Part shown: positions 6,072 to 59,317 of the stretch, piece by piece
How the letters are laid out: each line of letters opens with the position of its first letter
Numbering within the stretch: position 1 is the first letter of the stretch
Assembly: GCF_947648125.1 (NCBI RefSeq)
Contig: NZ_CANSMR010000029.1
Span: 23,653 to 87,652, forward strand
Source: an uncultured Bradyrhizobium sp.
GTDB lineage: Bacteria; Pseudomonadota; Alphaproteobacteria; Rhizobiales; Xanthobacteraceae
Direction: 5' to 3'
DNA: 64,000 nucleotides
The notes under the pieces: generated by a model
Databases searched by the model: none
Told to the model about the DNA's origin: nothing
What the model saw: only the letters and a program-made list of their open reading frames with translations
Made by a program: the position numbers and the translations under genes

Positions 6072-9373
<3,302 letters not shown>

Positions 9374-50649: not shown

Positions 50650-50768
50650 CCCGAGCCTCAAGCATTGCACATGAGCGCGACTATCGTCGCACGGGCGGCG
50701 ACGTAGGCAAAGCCAGCGTTTTGTGAAACCATGACGGCAACAGTCACAAGAAAATGACGGGAGAGACG

Positions 50769-51737
50769 ATGTTCCGGTTCGCACGTGCCACGTTGCTTGG
50801 TTTGATCTGCTGCCTTGCCTTCGTTGCCCCCTCATCCGCATCCGACTATCCGAACCGTCCGGTGCGCTGGCTGATCGGCTTTGCCGCCGGCGGGCCGGTC
50901 GACATCGTGGCGCGCATCATGAGCCAATGGCTCTCGGATCACCTCGGCCAGCAATTCGTGGTCGAGAACCGCGCCGGCTCCGGCGGCAACATCGCAGCCG
51001 CCGCCGCGATCAACTCGACGGCGGATGGCTATACGCTCTTGTTCGTCGCACCCAACAACGCGATCTCGACCTCGCTCTACAAGAAGCTGCCCTACGACTT
51101 CCTGCGCGACACCACTCCGGTCGCCAGCATCATGCAGCTCACCAACATGCTGGTGGTCTCGAACGCGATGCCGGTGAAGACCGTTCAGGAGTTCATCGAC
51201 TACTGCAAGGCCAACCCGGGCAAGATCGCCTACGCCTCGTCCGGCAACGGCACCTCGGTGCATATGTCGGCCGAGCTGTTCAAGGCGATGACCAAGTGCG
51301 ACATGCAGCACGTGCCGTATCGCGGATCCGCGATCGCCTTCCCCGACATCATCTCCAACAAGGTGCAGCTGATCTTCGACAATCTGCCGTCGGCGCTGGA
51401 GCAATCGCGCGGCGGCAGCGTCCGCGCGCTCGGCGTCACCTCGCCGCAGCGCTGGCCGGGCGTACCCGACGTGCCGGCGATCGCCGAGACCGTGCCGGGC
51501 TTCGAGTCGGTCGGCTTCTACGGCATCTCAGCGCCGAAGGGCACGCCGCCGGAGATCGTCGATATCCTCAACAAGGCGGTCGGCGAGGCCCTGAAGGACC
51601 CCAAGCTCGTGGCGCGCCTCGCCGAGGTCGGCGGCATCCCGAAGCCGATGACCCCGGCCGAATTCGGAAGGTTGGTCTCCGACGAGACCGAGAAATGGCG
51701 CAAGGTCGTGGAGTTCGCCGGCGTCTCGGTGGATTGA
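50769..51737 (+). CDS. Bug-family (tripartite tricarboxylate) solute-binding protein
   Basis: A 322-residue periplasmic binding protein of the Bug/TctC family. The signal peptide is MFRFARATLLGLICCLAFVA, with SSA-S cleavage. Then come YPNRPVRWLIGFAAGGPVDI (the 'YP.kPi..vvpf..GG..D' family start), FVVENRAGSGGNIAAAAAIN, DGYTLLFVAPNNAIS and VPYRGSAIAFPDI. Bug proteins bind carboxylates and related solutes for TctAB permeases, which are absent here. GGGAGAGACG precedes the ATG at 50769. It is divergent from the TAXI gene with about 120 bp between, so the two may be controlled together. The tRNA follows at 51853. Confidence 0.9.
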   Translation: MFRFARATLLGLICCLAFVAPSSASDYPNRPVRWLIGFAAGGPVDIVARIMSQWLSDHLGQQFVVENRAGSGGNIAAAAAINSTADGYTLLFVAPNNAISTSLYKKLPYDFLRDTTPVASIMQLTNMLVVSNAMPVKTVQEFIDYCKANPGKIAYASSGNGTSVHMSAELFKAMTKCDMQHVPYRGSAIAFPDIISNKVQLIFDNLPSALEQSRGGSVRALGVTSPQRWPGVPDVPAIAETVPGFESVGFYGISAPKGTPPEIVDILNKAVGEALKDPKLVARLAEVGGIPKPMTPAEFGRLVSDETEKWRKVVEFAGVSVD

Positions 51738-51852: not shown

Positions 51853-51928
51853 GGGCCTGTAGCTCAATGGTTAGAGCCGGCCGCTCATAACGGTCTGGTT
51901 GCAGGTTCGAGTCCTGCCGGGCCCACCA
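51853..51928 (+). tRNA. tRNA with CAU anticodon, probably Ile (lysidine type)
   Basis: A complete cloverleaf: acceptor GGGCCTG with CGGGCCC-A-CCA, D arm GCTC/GAGC, anticodon stem GGCCG/CGGTC with loop CTCATAA (anticodon CAT), and T arm GCAGG-TTCGAGT-CCTGC. CCA is encoded. CAT could be elongator Met, initiator Met or the lysidine-modified Ile. The short D loop AATGGTTA and the variable region TGGTT are closer to tRNA-Ile2 (ileX-like) than to elongator Met; the paired C-G start and the absence of GGG before the anticodon argue against the initiator. So Ile(CAU) is preferred, not proven. Its 3' 47 bp are duplicated downstream. Confidence 0.95.
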
Positions 51929-52020
51929 ATGAATTCAGAGGCTTGTCGATCTTGATATTTTCTACGCCGTCAGAAATTCCGACAGGATCAGGAACGATCT
52001 CGGCGCAAATAACCAAGTCA

Positions 52021-52114
52021 TCTCAATGGCACCTACGACAAGCCGGCCGTGCGTTACGGTCTGCTTGCAGGTTGGTGGCAATGACTCCAAGGTCGAGTCC
52101 GGTTCACATCAATG
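52021..52114 (+). pseudogene. Decayed copy of the tRNA(CAU) gene
   Basis: The segment contains, in order, CTCAATGG (D loop), an 11-base insertion, then AGCCGGCCG with TGCGTTACGGTCTGCTTGCA and GGTT. It corresponds to the D stem, anticodon arm and T stem of the tRNA at 51853, with about five mismatches over 33 bases. Farther on, GGTCGAGTCC and CATCAATGA match the T loop and the sequence after CCA. The anticodon loop is changed (TGCGTTA instead of CTCATAA) and the T arm interrupted, so it cannot fold as a tRNA. Confidence 0.65.
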
Positions 52115-52375
52115 AACGGACATGCGTTGGCAACATCGGCTAGTCCGAAAAGTGCCAAAAGCCGACATCCTCCTTAGCTGACGGGCACGCGACAGGCAGC
52201 TTGCTCCCCTAGCCCACAAGTCTCCATGGGTGTGTGTGAGCAATGCAATTTGCTCGAAAAAAGCGCAGCCCTTGGCTGCTCTCGCGCATATCGGCATCCG
52301 CCAGGCCGTGGTAGTATCGATGCAATCTATGCTTGTGGGTTCCGAAATGCCGATCAAGCTACCCATCGTTTGGAG

Positions 52376-52537
52376 ATGGACCTCCTAGGGGCTCGTCAGA
52401 TCGTCCGTTCACTGGCGCCACTCAAGGGCCTCACTGGCGACGACGCAGAAATTGTTGCCAGGATTATCGCACAGAGCTTCGCGGAGGGGCACCAACGAGT
52501 GGCGGCAAGTCCGAGCGAGGGGTGGCGCAATGAATAG
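52376..52537 (+). CDS. Doubtful small reading frame, 53 aa
   Basis: The ATG at 52376 gives MDLLGARQIVRSLAPLKGLT then GDDAEIVARIIAQSFAEGHQ and a short tail. The helical composition is plausible for a small protein or a fragment of a larger one. GGAG is immediately upstream of the ATG, too close to be a good ribosome-binding site. The frame is open to 52226 but the upstream residues look random. It ends 29 bp before the methyltransferase gene. It may be a decayed remnant. Confidence 0.3.
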   Translation: MDLLGARQIVRSLAPLKGLTGDDAEIVARIIAQSFAEGHQRVAASPSEGWRNE

Positions 52538-52566
52538 GGCTTGCGGGCGATTAGCAGGAGTGAGCG

Positions 52567-53364
52567 ATGAGCTTTGACCCTTATCGAGCGTTTCGGTCGC
52601 AGTTCGAGAGCAAGGCCGTCCGCTCGGCGTGGACAAAGAGCTACGGAGATCAATTCTGGGAGGAGTCGGCCCCACCTCTCTCCCAAGTTACTATCGACGA
52701 TATTGCGTTTCTGAAGCAACGATTGCGTCCAAGCTCGGAATCCAAACTCGCGGATCTTGGCTGTGGAATCGGCTGCGTCGGGAGATATTTGGCCAAGGAG
52801 TTCGATGCCGACGTTGAAGGCATAGACTCCAATCCTCTCGCCATCCGCATGGCGGATGAAGTTACGGTAACGTCCCGAATGGCACAGCGCCTGCGGTTCA
52901 AGACCGGCGACATCGCGAAGACGGGATGGATTGATCACTCCTTTGATGGCGCCTTCAGCATGGATGTGCTGCTATTCGTGCCCGATAAATTAGCTGCATT
53001 GCAGGAAATCGCCCGAATATTGAAACCCGGCGGCCGCTTTGTTGGCACGACCTGGGAGCTGCGCACCGACAGCAGCGCGCTGTCGGGGGGCAATTCGAGC
53101 GCTCGGCCGCTTTCGGCGTTCCACGAATATCCTAGCGCATTCAGGAGCGTTGGATTCAACGTCGAAGTCTATGAAGAGACCAGAAACTGGAGAAGCCTGC
53201 TAACAAACGCGCTTGGCGCGTTAGTGGCTTCGGAGGAAGCGATACGAAACGAGGTTGAAGGTTCCAAGGCTGACTGGCTTCTGTCTTGGGCTCGCGCACG
53301 GCCTGCGGAACTCGAACATAGTCGAAGAGTTCGTTTCTGCGTCCAGCGAAGCTCTGAACACTGA
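52567..53364 (+). CDS. Class I SAM-dependent methyltransferase
   Basis: A 265-residue methyltransferase with motif I LADLGCGIGCVGRYLA (about 61-76), an acidic post-I residue (DVEGIDSNPLAIRMA), FKTGDIAKTGWIDHSFDGAF with the motif II region, and the ILKPGGRFVGTTWE strand. It fits the small-molecule ubiE-like Methyltransf_11/25 type. Motif I ends in -CVGRYLA, typical of the fold. CAGGAGTGAGCG precedes the ATG at 52567. It is the only clear gene of the tRNA-bounded element. The substrate is unknown. Confidence 0.82.
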   Translation: MSFDPYRAFRSQFESKAVRSAWTKSYGDQFWEESAPPLSQVTIDDIAFLKQRLRPSSESKLADLGCGIGCVGRYLAKEFDADVEGIDSNPLAIRMADEVTVTSRMAQRLRFKTGDIAKTGWIDHSFDGAFSMDVLLFVPDKLAALQEIARILKPGGRFVGTTWELRTDSSALSGGNSSARPLSAFHEYPSAFRSVGFNVEVYEETRNWRSLLTNALGALVASEEAIRNEVEGSKADWLLSWARARPAELEHSRRVRFCVQRSSEH

Positions 53365-53623
53365 TAGCTCCGCAGCGGAGCTGCGGGAGTCCGCTAGGGG
53401 TCAATCGCGTCGGGTTGACCCTCCGCCGGTCACTTCCGGTCCACCACGAACAACGGACATCAACAGACTGGCCCCATTGGTCCGGTCGAGGCCTGTTGGC
53501 GGTTCGTGGCGGTCTCCCATGCCGCCAGTTATCCGGCAGAAACCCCGTGAACAAACGCGCATAGACGTGAATGATCTTGATCAAGAATCGCTGATTTTGC
53601 TTAAAATTCCTGACAAAGTCCTG
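53365..53623. other. Non-coding tail of the tRNA-bounded segment
   Basis: No convincing gene lies in this 259-bp stretch; the open frames in it have no recognisable composition. Right after the methyltransferase stop there is a palindrome, AGCTCCGcagCGGAGCT (53366-53382), which could be a weak terminator for that gene. It runs into the duplicated tRNA end at 53624. Confidence 0.5.
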
Positions 53624-53670
53624 CGCTCATAACGGTCTGGTTGCAGGTTCGAGTCCTGCCGGGCCCACCA
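53624..53670 (+). repeat. Direct repeat of the tRNA 3' end (right attachment site)
   Basis: 47 bp identical to 51882-51928, beginning CGCTCATAACGGTCTGGTTG and ending CCGGGCCCACCA. The D arm and 5' acceptor are missing, so it is a tail fragment and not a tRNA gene. It would be the distal attachment site left by integration at the tRNA. Confidence 0.9.
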
Positions 53671-53760
53671 TTCGATCAAAGCCTTGGCTCCGGCACCCGC
53701 GTGCGGCGTCGATCGAGCCGTTCGGCATCGCGCTCGCCGCATCATCTCGCTGCGGTCAAC

Positions 53761-54888
53761 TCACTCCCAGGCGGCCTGGAAAATGGCGCGGTAGCCGTCG
53801 GCATCCACCGGACGCGGATTGGTGGCGGTGGAATGATCCCTCGCCGCCTTCTCCGCCATGTCGTCCAGCACCGAGGCCGGCACACCCATGGCGCGCAGGC
53901 CACGCGGCAGATTGAGCTCGGCATTGAGGGCATCGAAGAACGCTGCGATGTCGGCACCTTCGGGCAGACCGAGCGCCAGCCTCAGCCGCGGCAGCTTGGC
54001 CGCGATCGCCGGACCATTGTAGCGCATCACTGCAGGCATCAGCACCGCATTGAGCGTGCCGTGATGCAGGCTCGGCGACGCGAGGCTGCCGAGCGCGTGC
54101 GACAACCCGTGCACCGCGCCAAGGCCCTTCTGGAAGCACAGACCGCCCTGCAGCGCGCCCATCATCACTTCGGCGCGGGCGTGGCGGTCATCGCCCGCTA
54201 TCACCGCCTGCTTGAGATGGCCGACAATGCGCGCTGCGCCATCGAGGGCGATCGCATCCGCCGGTGGATTGAAGCGCGGCGACAGAAAAGTCTCGACGCA
54301 ATGCGACAGTGCGTCCATGCCGGTGGCGGCCGTCAACGCCGGCGGCAGGCCGAGCGTCAGCAGCGGATCGCAGATGGCCCGTGCCGGAATAAGATGCGGA
54401 CTGATCAGGCCGACCTTGCGGCCGTCCTCGAGCGTGATGAGGGCAGCGCGGCCAACTTCGCTTCCGGTGCCGGCGGTGGTCGGAATCGCGATCACCGGCG
54501 CGACGGTGGCGGTGATCCGCGCGACGCCGCCATCGATCGCGGCATATTGCGCCAGCGGGCCTTCATGGCTGGCGAGCAGCGCCACCGCCTTGGCGAGATC
54601 GATCGGCGAGCCGCCGCCGAGCGCGACGAGGCCGTCGCATCCGGCCTCGCGATAGCGTGCGAGCGCCTGCAGCGTCGCACGCTCGGTCGGATTCGGCGGC
54701 GTCGCGTCGAACACCACCGGCGCAGTGCCGAGCGGAGCAGTCACGCGCTCCGCCAGGCCAGCCGCGACAATGCCGCGGTCGATGACAAGCATCGGCCGAC
54801 GGATACCGAGCGCTGCGATCTCATCGCCGAGCGTGTCCGCCTCGCCGAAGCCGAAGCGAATGGTGGTGAGATAGGTGATCAGCGCCAT
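53761..54888 (-). CDS. Iron-containing (group III) alcohol dehydrogenase
   Basis: A 375-residue NAD(P)-dependent, Fe-type alcohol dehydrogenase. The Rossmann part has LVIDRGIVAAGL and DGLVALGGGSPIDLAKAVAL (the GGGS.ID..K nucleotide motif). Metal ligands appear as Asp and His in ATGMDALSHCVETFLSP and the two His in GAVHGLSHALGSLASPSLHH. PTTAGTGSEVGRAALI is also typical. Such enzymes reduce aldehydes or oxidise alcohols, and maleylacetate reductases share this fold. It is likely followed in transcription by nothing further; the cupin gene lies 26 bp upstream. Confidence 0.9.
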   Translation of the reverse strand: MALITYLTTIRFGFGEADTLGDEIAALGIRRPMLVIDRGIVAAGLAERVTAPLGTAPVVFDATPPNPTERATLQALARYREAGCDGLVALGGGSPIDLAKAVALLASHEGPLAQYAAIDGGVARITATVAPVIAIPTTAGTGSEVGRAALITLEDGRKVGLISPHLIPARAICDPLLTLGLPPALTAATGMDALSHCVETFLSPRFNPPADAIALDGAARIVGHLKQAVIAGDDRHARAEVMMGALQGGLCFQKGLGAVHGLSHALGSLASPSLHHGTLNAVLMPAVMRYNGPAIAAKLPRLRLALGLPEGADIAAFFDALNAELNLPRGLRAMGVPASVLDDMAEKAARDHSTATNPRPVDADGYRAIFQAAWE

Positions 54889-54914
54889 GGCCCGTCGTCC
54901 GTTGCGTCGATCGA

Positions 54915-55352
54915 TCAGAGATCGGTGCGTTCTTGGGCGATGTCGCGACGCTGCTCCATGTTGAAGCGCCCCGCGTAGATCGGCCGCCCGCCGGTGGTCG
55001 GACCGGGATATTGCACGATCAGGATATCGCCGCCGGTCGCGGTCTCGAACTTGCCTTCGAAATGCGGGTCCGGATGGAAGATCATCGTGCCCGGCGTGTA
55101 GACATTATCGTCGATCCTGAATTCGCCGCTGAGGATGTACCAGACCTGCGCGAACTCGTGATTGTGGATCGGATGATGCGCGCCCGGATCCAGCCGCAGG
55201 ATGCCCGCGTTCGGCTCGGTCGGCCGCTCCGGCCGCGGGTGGAACAGCATCTTGCCGGTCTCGCCAGGCCAGCGGATGGTCTCCCACTCCACATCGTCGA
55301 TGTGCTTCGCCTCATACGGCAGGTGCCTGCCGGTCGCGGTTGCGGTCTGCAT
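54915..55352 (-). CDS. Cupin-domain protein, 145 aa
   Basis: A single-domain cupin. The metal motif reads HHPIHNHEFAQVWYILSGEF with GEFRID-type spacing, and the second motif PGTMIFHPDPHFEGKF lies about 20 residues on. The His and Glu metal ligands look present. Small cupins can be sugar-acid isomerases, dioxygenases, or sensors; no reaction can be named. It sits three bases after the end of the XRE-cupin regulator and before the alcohol dehydrogenase, so it is the middle gene of this minus-strand operon and may act on the same substrate. Confidence 0.85.
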   Translation of the reverse strand: MQTATATGRHLPYEAKHIDDVEWETIRWPGETGKMLFHPRPERPTEPNAGILRLDPGAHHPIHNHEFAQVWYILSGEFRIDDNVYTPGTMIFHPDPHFEGKFETATGGDILIVQYPGPTTGGRPIYAGRFNMEQRRDIAQERTDL

Positions 55353-55355
55353 GGA

Positions 55356-56015
55356 TCAGTCTCCTTGGGGCTTGCTCTTGGGTGATCGAGGTGGGGCGGC
55401 GGCGCTCGGCACGCGCCACCAGTCGAAATGCTCGACCTTCTGCGGCGACTTCGCGACCACCATCAGGATGCGCGCTTCGTCCTCGCTGATGTTGTCTGCG
55501 CGGTGCGGCAGCTCGGAATTGAGGAAAATGCCCTCACCGGGCGAAAGATCGAACACCTCGGCGCCGACGTGGAAGCGGATGCGACCGCTGATCACGTAGC
55601 AGTATTCCTGTCCCGGATGCGAAACCATGAGGTCCATCCGGTTCTTGCGCGGGAACGAGAGGTGAAACACCTCCAGATCATCGTTCGGCATGCCGCCCGC
55701 GAACAATCGCCAGCGATAGCCGGTGCTCGGGATGCTCTGGTCCTCACCATCGTCGCCATGGCGATGCAGCGTGACGTGGCTGCGCGACTGGTCCTGCGGC
55801 GCGGCGAACAATTCGCTGACGCCAATGTCGAGCGCCTGCGCGATCTGGATCAGATTGGCAACGGAGCTCGACACCTGGCCGCGTTCGAGGCGCGACACGA
55901 AAGCGTCGGACAGCCCGGTGGTGTCGGCCAGATCCTTCAGCTTCATACCACGCTCCTCCCGCAGCGAGCGAATGCGTGCTCCAAGCCTCGCCAGCGTCTC
56001 GTCCTGCGTTTTCAT
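55356..56015 (-). CDS. XRE-family regulator with C-terminal cupin sensor
   Basis: A 219-residue two-domain regulator. Residues about 8-65 form an XRE helix-turn-helix (LGARIRSLREERGMKLKDLA, TGLSDAFVSRLERGQVSSSV). Residues about 110-190 form a cupin sensor (HPGQEYCYVISGRIRFHVGA and SPGEGIFLNSELPHRADN). This is the MerR-unrelated XRE-cupin type that often represses catabolic operons. The ATG at 56015 is preceded by GGGTCGGAGCA. It leads the operon with the cupin and dehydrogenase genes, and is divergent from the binding protein at 56200. A 7-bp inverted repeat lies 40 bp upstream of its start. Confidence 0.9.
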   Translation of the reverse strand: MKTQDETLARLGARIRSLREERGMKLKDLADTTGLSDAFVSRLERGQVSSSVANLIQIAQALDIGVSELFAAPQDQSRSHVTLHRHGDDGEDQSIPSTGYRWRLFAGGMPNDDLEVFHLSFPRKNRMDLMVSHPGQEYCYVISGRIRFHVGAEVFDLSPGEGIFLNSELPHRADNISEDEARILMVVAKSPQKVEHFDWWRVPSAAAPPRSPKSKPQGD

Positions 56016-56054
56016 TGCTCCGACCCTCTCCAGAATTTGCTTCCCTGTCAATCA

Positions 56055-56075
56055 AAATTGCTCTACAAGCAATTT
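56055..56075. promoter_or_regulatory. Inverted repeat, candidate operator of the XRE-cupin regulator
   Basis: AAATTGC (56055-56061), seven bases TCTACAA, then GCAATTT (56069-56075): a perfect dyad in the 184-bp divergent region, 40 bp from the regulator start and 125 bp from the binding-protein start. XRE regulators typically bind such palindromes. A binding assay is needed; the placement is the only evidence. Confidence 0.5.
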
Positions 56076-56199
56076 CTATTGCGCCCGATGTTGAAATGAT
56101 GGGAAATCCCGTTGGTCTCCGCATCGATGCACAAGCGAATTGCGTACCACGCAACAAAGCCAAACAGCAAACAACACGCCCCCGGGGGAGCACCCGACC

Positions 56200-57405
56200 A
56201 TGACGACCACTCTCAGAATGCTATGCGCGGCGATGACCGCGACGCTGCTGCACATTCACGTTGCGCACGCCGCGATGTCCGACAATGTGATCCGCATCGG
56301 GATCCTCAACGACCGCTCCGGCGCCTATGCCGACCTCGGCGGCGAAGGCTCGGTCGTCGCGGCGAAGATGGCGGCGGAGGAATTCGGCAACGCGATCGGT
56401 GCCGTGCCGATCGAGATCGTCTCGGCCGATCACCAGAACAAGCCGGACATCGGACTTGGCATCGTGCGGCGCTGGTTCGACACGGAGAAAGTCGATGCCG
56501 TTGCCGACATTTCCAATTCCGGCGTCGGTTTCGCGGTGACCGCTCTCGCCAAGGAACGCAACAAGATCGTGCTGAACGCGTCGGCCTCCTCCGACTTCAC
56601 CGGCAAGGCCTGCACCCGGACCTCGTTCCAGTGGGTCTACACGAGCTATACCAACGGCTACGGTCTCGCGCGGGCGCTGACGGCGCAGAAGCTCGACAGC
56701 TGGTTCCTGATCACGGTGGATTATTCGTTCGGCCACGCCTTCGCCGCCGACATGCGCCGCGCGGTCGAGAGCGGCGGCGGCAAGGTGATCGGTGAGGTGC
56801 GCCACCCGCTCAACACCGCCGACTTCAGTTCGGTGCTGCTGCAGGCGCAGGCGTCCGGCGCCAAGGTGATCGCGCTGGCCAACGCCGGCGCCGACATGAC
56901 CAACTCGGTAAAGCAGGCCGCCGAGTTCGGCATCACCCGCGGGCAGGCATTGGTGGCACCGACCGTATTCCTCACCGACGTCGACGCGATGGGCCTCGCG
57001 GCCGCGCAGAACCTGCAGTTCGTCACCGCGTATTACTGGGACCGCGATGCCGAGTCGCGGGCGTGGGCCAACAAGTTCTTTGAGAAGGTTGGGCGGATGC
57101 CGACCATGACCCAGGCCGGTGTCTATTCAGCCGTGCGTCACTACTTGCGTGCGGTGCAGGCCGCAAATTCCGACGATGGCCTCGCTGTCGCAGCCAAGAT
57201 ACGCGAATTGCCGGTTGCCGACGCGTTCGCTCGCGGCACGGTCCGCACCGACGGCCAGTTCGTGCACGACATGTACCTGGCGCGCGTCAAGACACCGGCG
57301 GCTTCGAGCCGACGATGGGACTACTACGACATCGTCGCGACGATTCCCGCCGAGCAGGCCTTCCGGCCGCTCGGCGAGGGTGGCTGCGAGTTGGTCTCGC
57401 AGTAA
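56200..57405 (+). CDS. ABC-type branched-chain-amino-acid-like solute-binding protein
   Basis: A 401-residue LivJ-type periplasmic binding protein. The signal peptide is MTTTLRMLCAAMTATLLHIH.. ending AHA-A. The mature part runs DNVIRIGILNDRSGAYADLG, DHQNKPDIGLGIVRRWFDTE, WFLITVDYSFGHAFAADMRR, VLLQAQASGAKVIALANAGA. It resembles the protein at 48396 (about 45 percent by eye). GGGGGAGCACCCGACC precedes the ATG at 56200. No ABC permease or ATPase is adjacent on this strand; it is divergent from the regulator/cupin/dehydrogenase operon. So it may carry the substrate of that operon into the cell through a distant permease. Confidence 0.88.
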   Translation: MTTTLRMLCAAMTATLLHIHVAHAAMSDNVIRIGILNDRSGAYADLGGEGSVVAAKMAAEEFGNAIGAVPIEIVSADHQNKPDIGLGIVRRWFDTEKVDAVADISNSGVGFAVTALAKERNKIVLNASASSDFTGKACTRTSFQWVYTSYTNGYGLARALTAQKLDSWFLITVDYSFGHAFAADMRRAVESGGGKVIGEVRHPLNTADFSSVLLQAQASGAKVIALANAGADMTNSVKQAAEFGITRGQALVAPTVFLTDVDAMGLAAAQNLQFVTAYYWDRDAESRAWANKFFEKVGRMPTMTQAGVYSAVRHYLRAVQAANSDDGLAVAAKIRELPVADAFARGTVRTDGQFVHDMYLARVKTPAASSRRWDYYDIVATIPAEQAFRPLGEGGCELVSQ

Positions 57406-57412
57406 CGACGCA

Positions 57413-57442
57413 GGCGGACGGTGGCCGACACCATCGTCCGCC
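57413..57442. terminator. Hairpin after the binding-protein gene
   Basis: GGCGGACGGTGG (57413-57424) pairs with CCATCGTCCGCC (57431-57442) around a 6-base loop, with one G-T pair in 12. It starts eight bases after the stop. There is no T run. It could be a bidirectional stop between this gene and the convergent NTF2-like gene. Confidence 0.75.
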
Positions 57443-57491: not shown

Positions 57492-58052
57492 TCAGTTGCC
57501 GGCCTCGCGTCGAAGAAATTGAGCAATCGGCGTCAAAGCGTCGATCGAAGGCAAGCCTGCGCGCGCCTCGCTGTATGACGACCAGGGATAGGGGATGGCC
57601 GAAAGCCACTGCAGGACAGGCGTCTGATAGCTGGCTGGCAGCACGCACATGAACTCAATCTTGATGAACAGCCGTTTGACGCGACCGTCTCCGGCGGTAT
57701 CAAAATCCCAGGTGTACTCACCGCAACCGACACGTACGTCGCCATCGGACTTGTTTGACATTCCCACCAGCCAGTCGCATTGAAACCGTGGAAGGCGATT
57801 GGACTCAGGGCGCGAGAGGCAGAAAGTGCGCACATTCTCATACTGCAATCCAAAGTTTCGCACGAGAACATCGGTCACGCTCTCCAATCCGTGAGCGGAG
57901 CTTGGAAAAGAGATTGCGTCGGTCAGGAGCTGCATCTGGAGCTCACAATCCGGCACGAACGCACGTTTCATGAGCTGGGGCAGGTTTCGGTCCTTTGCCT
58001 CGATATACGTGCTGATCGCCTCGGTCGCCGTGATCGATTGGGGTTGACTCAA
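57492..58052 (-). CDS. NTF2/SnoaL-like fold protein, 186 aa
   Basis: The TTG at 58052 is preceded by GTGGAGAGAATAC, a good ribosome-binding site. It gives a start LSQPQSITATEAISTYIEAK, typical of NTF2-like proteins ('AI..Y..A...'). The rest, with FVPDCELQMQLLTDAISFPS and GLESVTDVLVRNFGLQYENV, then a beta-rich half ending in a basic helix, fits a SnoaL-like ketosteroid-isomerase fold. The open frame continues to 58232, but those residues are hydrophobic and irregular. It is downstream of the ABC ATPase gene on the same strand with about 155 bp between, so it is only loosely linked. The ligand or reaction is unknown. Confidence 0.65.
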   Translation of the reverse strand: MSQPQSITATEAISTYIEAKDRNLPQLMKRAFVPDCELQMQLLTDAISFPSSAHGLESVTDVLVRNFGLQYENVRTFCLSRPESNRLPRFQCDWLVGMSNKSDGDVRVGCGEYTWDFDTAGDGRVKRLFIKIEFMCVLPASYQTPVLQWLSAIPYPWSSYSEARAGLPSIDALTPIAQFLRREAGN

Positions 58053-58207
58053 GTATTCTCTCCACAGGTACGCGACCAGATGCCAGGTGACAGCGGCGCC
58101 AACGACATCGCAGGAAACAACAAGATGGGCGCCGCTAAACCCAAGCCTCACAATATACCGCAAGCTTGATTCCTTCACCCTCACGCCTCTGCGAAAGACG
58201 ATCGCAA

Positions 58208-59317
58208 TCAGGCTGCCGGAAATGCCGAGCACCGATCTGCCTGAATGGCAATGCCGACAGGTGCCCCCATTGGCCAGCGGAGAACAGCCTGCTCACCCGG
58301 GGATCGCACCAGCAACCGCTCCCCGGCGCTTCCAGAGCACTCGATCTGAAGATCGACGTGGCCACCCTGGTAGATCTGGGCAACAACGCTGCCCTTGATG
58401 GCGCACGGCTCCTCGGGCGCCACAACATTGAACTGCTCGGGGCGGACGAACAGGTCAACGGCCGCGGACTTCTCCAATCCGGACAGGCTCTCGCCCGGCA
58501 CGTTCACCAGGGCATCGCCAAGCGCGACGATCGCTTGCTTCGCGTGCACACTCACAAGCTGGCCGCGCAGCCTGTTGTTGTCGCCGACAAAGCCGGCCAC
58601 GAACGGGTCCGCCGGGCTGCGATAGACGTCGACAGGGCTACCGAGTTGCCTGATACGGCCCTCGGACATCACAGCCACGCGGTCGGACATGCTCAAGGCC
58701 TCGCCTTGGTCGTGCGTCACGAAGATCGTGGTCAGACCCAGCTTGCGCTGAATTTCCCGCAGCTCCACCTGCATCGAGGTCCGCAGGCTCTTATCGAGCG
58801 CCGAGAACGGCTCGTCGAGCAGCAGGACGGTCGGATTGATGACGAGGGCGCGCGCGAGCGCGACGCGCTGCTGCTGACCGCCGGACAATTGCCGGGGCTT
58901 GCGGCTCTCCATGCCCTTCAGCTTGACCAGCGCCAGCGCATCGGCGACGCGCTTGTCCCTCGCAGCCCTGGGGACGCGCCGCGTCGTCAGGCCGTAAGCG
59001 ACGTTCTCCGCCACACTCATATGCGGAAACAGCGCGTAGTTCTGAAACATCATGCCGATGCCGCGCTGGTAGGTCGGAATGTCATTCACCCGCTTGCCTT
59101 CGATCGAAATCGAACCGCCGTCCGGGCCCAGAAAGCCCGCAGCCAGCTTGAGCAGCGTGGTCTTGCCGCATCCCGATGGACCAAGCAGCGTCAGGAACTC
59201 GCTGCGGCCAACGCCGAGCGTAACGGCATTTAAGGCGACGACGTCATCAAATCGCTTGGTCACGGCGTCGAAATGGACCGCCGCTTGTTCCCCTTCAACG
59301 TTCGCAGACGGCTTCAC
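58208..59317 (-). CDS. PotA-type ABC transporter ATP-binding protein
   Basis: A 369-residue ABC ATPase of the spermidine/putrescine/iron/phosphonate group. Walker A GPSGCGKTT, Q-loop FQNYALFPHMSVAENVAYGL, signature LSGGQQQRVALARALV and Walker B VLLLDEPFSALD are seen, followed by IFVTHDQGEALSMSDRVAVM and a C-terminal TOBE domain (FVAGFVGDNNRLRGQLVSVH onward). It energises the importer encoded by the three genes upstream (12 bp to the second permease). The substrate is not decided by the ATPase. Confidence 0.93.
   Translation of the reverse strand: MKPSANVEGEQAAVHFDAVTKRFDDVVALNAVTLGVGRSEFLTLLGPSGCGKTTLLKLAAGFLGPDGGSISIEGKRVNDIPTYQRGIGMMFQNYALFPHMSVAENVAYGLTTRRVPRAARDKRVADALALVKLKGMESRKPRQLSGGQQQRVALARALVINPTVLLLDEPFSALDKSLRTSMQVELREIQRKLGLTTIFVTHDQGEALSMSDRVAVMSEGRIRQLGSPVDVYRSPADPFVAGFVGDNNRLRGQLVSVHAKQAIVALGDALVNVPGESLSGLEKSAAVDLFVRPEQFNVVAPEEPCAIKGSVVAQIYQGGHVDLQIECSGSAGERLLVRSPGEQAVLRWPMGAPVGIAIQADRCSAFPAA

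Follow-up and report, generated by a model that had tools for sequence, protein, structure and literature searches.

trnI-CAT is already known as a possible genomic-island hotspot in Bradyrhizobium japonicum USDA6 and USDA110, with duplications of 47-49 bp, and so is an integrase-less island at this gene. In the sections of that study used here (PMC3927601), BJ6TGI13, an island of 6,478 bp at the backbone trnI-CAT with a 48-bp duplication, appears with no integrase listed. The same sections describe the USDA6 backbone trnI-CAU as an island target of 76 bases, the length of the gene treated below, and report identical extra copies of it inside USDA6 islands. Bradyrhizobium symICEs integrate at a tRNA-Ile gene as well, according to the parts of two further papers drawn on here (PMC9239051, PMC9174649). 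The excerpted definition of a CIME is that of an element which keeps attL and attR, with integration and transfer genes absent (PMC5704250). Finally, the Dehalococcoides ssrA islands include 15 without an integration module, for which the authors, in the sections used, suggest cis-mobilizable elements (PMC3146451).

Here we describe a further case from an uncultured Bradyrhizobium sp., found in a window of 64,000 nucleotides (the whole stretch of DNA that was analysed). It is very likely the remnant of an integrative element that came in through a tyrosine integrase at the 3' end of tRNA-Ile2(CAU), lost the integrase later and kept its attachment ends, in the layout of a CIME. What makes it modestly interesting is the pair of ends it shares with other islands, around different cargo. 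Its features are collected in Table 1.

Table 1 Features of the element and its surroundings, in window coordinates.
Feature	Position	Strand	Basis
Gene for a TctC-type receptor, left of the tRNA and conserved there	50754..51737	+	Family match; shared in relatives
tRNA-Ile2(CAU) gene (probable identity), integration target	51853..51928	+	ARAGORN (labelled Met-CAU); identical copy in 32 relative loci
attL-side core: 3' 47 bp of the tRNA, anticodon stem to CCA	51882..51928	+	Exact repeat; relative loci
LE, conserved left end of the element	51929..52169	+	G232 alike at 81% along some 240 bp
CAG repeat pair of LE, 12 bp apart, arm-type-like	51971..51988	+	Sequence compared with int-proximal arms; function inferred
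tRNA-like relic within LE	52041..52073	+	Similarity compared with shuffles
ORF of 103 aa; may not be a gene	52226..52537	+	Low codon adaptation; without a match in Pfam or PHROG
Cargo gene: class I SAM-dependent methyltransferase (Methyltransf_11)	52567..53364	+	Pfam E 4.2e-18
RE, conserved right end contiguous with the repeat; may be the 3' end, now degenerate, of an integrase gene that was lost	53480..53623	+	
Paired CAG repeats 11 bp apart in RE, arm-type-like	53526..53543	+	Scan of island ends; function inferred
attR-side core, repeating the 47 bp of the attL side exactly	53624..53670	+	Sequence match
Second variable segment, with genes for Fe-ADH, cupin, XRE-type regulator and solute-binding protein	53671..57434		Absent here in nearest relative G004

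As the original prediction held, the 3'-terminal 47 bp of the CAU tRNA gene occur a second time, unchanged, on the far side of the element (47/47 positions identical). The repeat's last 22 bases occur with three mismatches or fewer at two places only in the window, and 0 times in 100 shuffles. The predicted drop in GC content is there too: the 1,695 bases between the two cores (51929-53623) have a GC fraction of 0.563, where the mean is 0.649 (sd 0.023), and none of 590 sliding windows of the same length taken outside them is equally low. Codon use proved foreign as well. The methyltransferase has a CAI of 0.418, compared with 0.542-0.771 in nine neighbouring reference genes; a further neighbour gene, 57492-58232, is also low at 0.489. 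Three marks of a tRNA island are present here: the tRNA 3' end repeated at the far boundary, a foreign composition, and content specific to the strain.

The methyltransferase is the sole gene of the element with a family match, and no tyrosine integrase was found in the element or on its contig, which bears out the earlier description of a cargo reduced to one methyltransferase with the integrase gone. Whether the integrase was lost or never there, this makes it at most a remnant or a dependent element. The genome has ten Phage_integrase matches, none of them on the window's contig. An integrase pseudogene inside the element was considered and rejected, since tblastn with four integrases returned chance matches (best E 0.066), none within 51929-53670. 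No integration or transfer genes were found in the element, and the conjugation and symbiosis genes that mark the tRNA-Ile symICEs did not turn up in it. At E 1e-25, one of 195 same-genus genomes carries the methyltransferase, namely its own, and the scan of genome contigs confirmed no relatives. Among plasmids, 45 records match it, none of them reaching 60% identity; the eight in the list are all Streptomyces records, with 28-30%. A phage origin was set aside, with two weak matches to Listeria phages (29%). Separately, 53389-53460 looks like a dispersed intergenic repeat, with several matches at 70-76% in the same genome, and a stretch at about 52100-52175 gives a similar impression by eye.

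The target is the single tRNA that ARAGORN detects in the window. An Rfam tRNA search of the genome gave 48 matches, 47 of them above the cut-off, and on the loci of the 46 full-length matches ARAGORN finds three tRNAs with a CAU anticodon in this draft genome. Because the two others carry what we take to be the features of initiator and elongator tRNA-Met, we reject the program's Met label by elimination: the window's gene is probably tRNA-Ile2, the decoder of AUA. The draft's tRNA list is incomplete, as tRNA-Ile(GAT) was not found in it.

We then compared the locus with its counterparts. At E 1e-12 the region search matched 55 of 60 genomes, the window's own included, and of the 35 other genomes of the same genus, 32 supplied a locus; that all of these hold a complete tRNA identical to ours reflects their selection, as they were picked because the search had placed tRNA-Ile2 there. 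Nine of the 32 have the tRNA once more, in full or in part, at a distance of 1.5 to 13 kb downstream; this copy ends at CCA in every case and starts at tRNA position 28-30 in seven. Pairwise comparison covered 36 loci, that is, those of the relatives minus one (its contig ends 0.9 kb past the tRNA), plus the window and four genomes that share the element's ends. Within 2 kb upstream of the tRNA, 150 bp or more are common to both loci in 455 of 630 pairs; within 3 kb downstream this holds for 9 of 630, six of these being the LE and RE ends described below.

Genomes G259 and G012, 94-95% alike in their flanks, form a base-precise occupied and empty pair: G259 has 10,420 bp more, with the tRNA's last base as the precise insertion point, and beyond its LE/RE island a second small segment closes with a 15-base copy of the tRNA end. 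The comparison of occupied and empty sites proposed with the original prediction thus gave such a pair for this sister island, and relatives differ in their occupants. For the window's own element no clean empty site was found among the 35 relatives; in the nearest of them, G004 (96% in TctC), 16.9 kb of other DNA occupies the tRNA site. The tRNA-Ile2 gene of Bradyrhizobium is an integration hotspot at which many strains carry different inserts, confirmed to the base by G259 and G012, and the larger or different islands suggested for relatives are indeed there.

As for the limits of the element, the repeat ending at 53670 stands, but the variable region continues past it, and the backbone common to the window and G004 resumes only at 57435. 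The segment in between, in which the XRE-type regulator and the solute-binding protein were named from sequence and not by family search, has a host-like GC fraction of 0.654. It finds matches of 66-79% elsewhere in some of the 35 relatives, with no close copy among them. This segment may be a second element, or may have been lost in G004.

A family of integrases adjacent to the same tRNA, sought in line with the original prediction, was found in relatives. In G006 an integrase gene, whose protein belongs to Pfam Phage_integrase, ends 18 bp from the tRNA; in G018 another ends 18 bp from the repeat copy, and a third occurs in G002. At E 1e-40, 84 of 195 same-genus genomes contain relatives of these integrases. 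Of 30 loci, 9 have a complete tRNA-Ile2 (at least 98.7% identical) no more than about 65 bp from where the aligned integrase ends; in six more the 3' part lies about 115-135 bp beyond that end, in the same sense, and one has it 385 bp away. The other 14 loci have no tRNA-Ile2 sequence at the integrase end, so the family also uses other sites. Together with the G259/G012 pair and the foreign GC and codon content, this adjacent family supports the view that the tRNA repeats are tyrosine-integrase attachment sites. The window's genome has no member of the family at E 1e-40, and for this reason the element is most likely stationary in its strain. In G017 (L116) and G024 (L131), an integrase of another type, which we take to be P4-like, starts about 100 and 460 bp past the repeat copy, respectively, and points away from it; this is a second integrase family at the hotspot.

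Further copies and fragments of the tRNA-Ile2 gene deserve a separate word. In the window's own genome, four 3' fragments stand without the rest of the gene (L060:9172-9220, L061:7449-7496, L046:9549-9590 and L062:8370-8406, on contigs C1 and C19), and the neighbours of those at C1:339 kb and C1:387 kb resemble, by eye, the tRNA-adjacent island arms of relatives. They are perhaps att sites within larger islands, or secondary insertions. G009 (L140:9988-10063) and G027 (L142:10193-10268) have extra copies in which the T-stem is different yet paired (CCTGG/CCAGG), a variant also seen in the G232 tRNA; it is as if the other 3' half came from an island. G032 holds two identical complete genes 7.4 kb apart (L126:1122-1197 and 8517-8592), by which some elements may carry the whole gene, beyond its 3' part alone. 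The best 20 plasmid records listed carry the gene at 95.9-100% identity, 13 of them from Bradyrhizobium and 7 from Methylobacterium. The presence of tRNA-Ile2 on plasmids of two genera may merit attention, whether for AUA decoding or as extra docking sites. Such plasmid-borne copies were considered as a source of the island and rejected, as LE had no match on plasmids.

The two ends of the element recur in other genomes. LE was found in 6 of 265 genomes, the window's own included (the others being G232, G151, G259, G270 and G263), at 74-95% identity to the window, and each time it comes after tRNA-Ile2 or its 3' part. In G263 that 3' part is decayed, and no RE lies within about 18 kb. A 201-base RE query matched 21 of 265 genomes, again counting our own; in 11 the match reaches the part beside the repeat, while in the other 10 it covers 35-54 bases only. 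In 8 of 10 loci checked, the window among them, tRNA 3' sequence follows RE, once for 25 bases only.

In the window's RE, the CAG repeats lie 98 and 87 bp before the core. We scanned 19 ends of islands with and without an integrase (those of L117, L126, L150, G100, G162, G028 and G127 were left out). From the start of the inner repeat to the core it is 85-87 bp in 18 of them (72 bp in L129), and in 18 the outer repeat is 11 bp more distant (it was not recognised in L103). On the left, a pair like that of LE occurs in 5 of the 9 int-proximal arms listed, and different repeats in the other 4. The CAG pairs of LE and RE are putative arm-type integrase sites, and the element has two conserved ends with paired repeats placed as in integrase-bearing islands.

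Within LE, the tRNA-like relic matches the tRNA at 28 of 33 positions (score 41) and may be an older att site. Scores as high arose in 0 of 500 shuffles for the window and for G232, in 4 of 500 for G263, and in 20 to 48 of 500 for G270, G259 and G151. Read as a peptide, RE resembles the tail of an integrase in three of five versions (1, 3 and 1 of 200 shuffles as good) but not in the window's own (33 of 200) or that of G006 (143 of 200); the integrases whose last codons it resembles sit at the distal end. LE read as a peptide on both strands gave nothing recognisable.

Four genomes, chosen for sharing the element's ends, have both LE and RE at tRNA-Ile2. The ends bracket 3,867 bp in G232, 5,575 bp in G151, 9,242 bp in G259 and 5,951 bp in G270, and RE is 77-88% identical to that of the window. 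The cargos are all different: dienelactone hydrolase with a TPR protein, subtilase, autotransporters with DUF4915, and an IclR regulator with an aminotransferase and an ABC transporter. Using the integrases in hand, tblastn found none in the four stretches, and there was none among 15 proteins chosen from selected ORFs of these islands. Several of the long ORFs have a high, host-like GC3 of 0.7-0.87. The TctC gene is 84-87% identical to that of the window in three of the four genomes.

We now propose a history for the element. It would have entered at the 3' end of tRNA-Ile2(CAU) in a Bradyrhizobium-like genome, by tyrosine-integrase recombination inside the anticodon-to-CCA half of the gene. 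The tRNA would have stayed whole through the incoming copy of the 3' half, and the displaced 47 bp would mark the far end. The integrase may have been lost later, or the element may descend from one already without it, and core and arm sites would have been retained at both ends. On this view an integrase would once have been part of the element, and one arriving from outside might still act on it.

The same origin may have been followed by another course of events, which we regard as possible if rather doubtful: one ancient integration, with the ends inherited vertically, the interior replaced repeatedly by homologous recombination or insertion, and no recent site-specific movement. LE and RE differ from genome to genome, and from the window, about as much as the flanking TctC gene does, and old ends may therefore have descended vertically. 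This account is harder to reconcile with the occupied site of G259, since at the same base the tRNA end of its relative G012 is clean, though G012 may have lost the element by excision. The sparse distribution of LE also speaks against it: the four of its six genomes that a one-gene tree of 28 loci includes fall on separate branches, one poorly supported.

It seems unlikely that these are a live family of Bradyrhizobium satellite islands without integrase, mobilized in trans by resident or incoming, unrelated tRNA-Ile2 integrases via a shared arm-site geometry, with whole cargos exchanged between fixed ends. Such a family would account for the unrelated cargos between shared ends in five islands, for repeats positioned as in integrase-bearing islands, and for presence in some relatives and absence in others (G259/G012). 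Yet no movement was seen; the window's genome lacks the family integrase at the threshold used, and host-like GC3 in several long ORFs of the sister islands does not favour it.

Lastly, segmental duplication of part of the tRNA gene with no integrated element, named with the original prediction as the competing account, is hardly credible: some relatives do have extra full copies, but the downstream copies of the nine relatives share their CCA end and, in seven, their start, continue into conserved arms and delimit an insertion to the base, and for the sister island the G259/G012 pair contradicts it.

With the remnant of a tyrosine-integrase element as the preferred reading, what stands out at this hotspot are small islands in which both attachment ends are kept, no integrase is recognised and the cargo is completely different. 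If it is true that the integrases of other elements use such ends, small cargos could spread without a mobility gene of their own.

How does the element compare with known systems? Like the trnI-CAT islands of USDA6 and USDA110, it combines the same kind of tRNA, a duplication of the 3' part and a lower GC content; unlike them, it is smaller (1.7 kb) and carries other cargo, and ends of the LE/RE type go unmentioned in the sections of that study used here (PMC3927601). The tRNA-Ile symICEs share the genus and integration at a tRNA-Ile gene, the excerpts leaving unstated which one; they are about 0.63 Mb, conjugative and symbiotic, and the window's element is none of these (PMC9239051, PMC9174649). 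The element would fit a decayed cis-mobilizable element (CIME), as defined in the excerpt cited (PMC5704250): both att ends are kept, with identical cores and arm-like repeats (putative sites) on both sides, integration and transfer genes are missing, and the site is open to tandem stacking. Mobilization in cis, the property that gives CIMEs their name, is only putative for our element. With the Dehalococcoides ssrA islands, as far as the sections used describe them (PMC3146451), it has in common a single-copy RNA gene as target, tandem islands and a short 3' repeat; there, a serine recombinase works with ssrA, and here tyrosine integrases would work with tRNA-Ile2.
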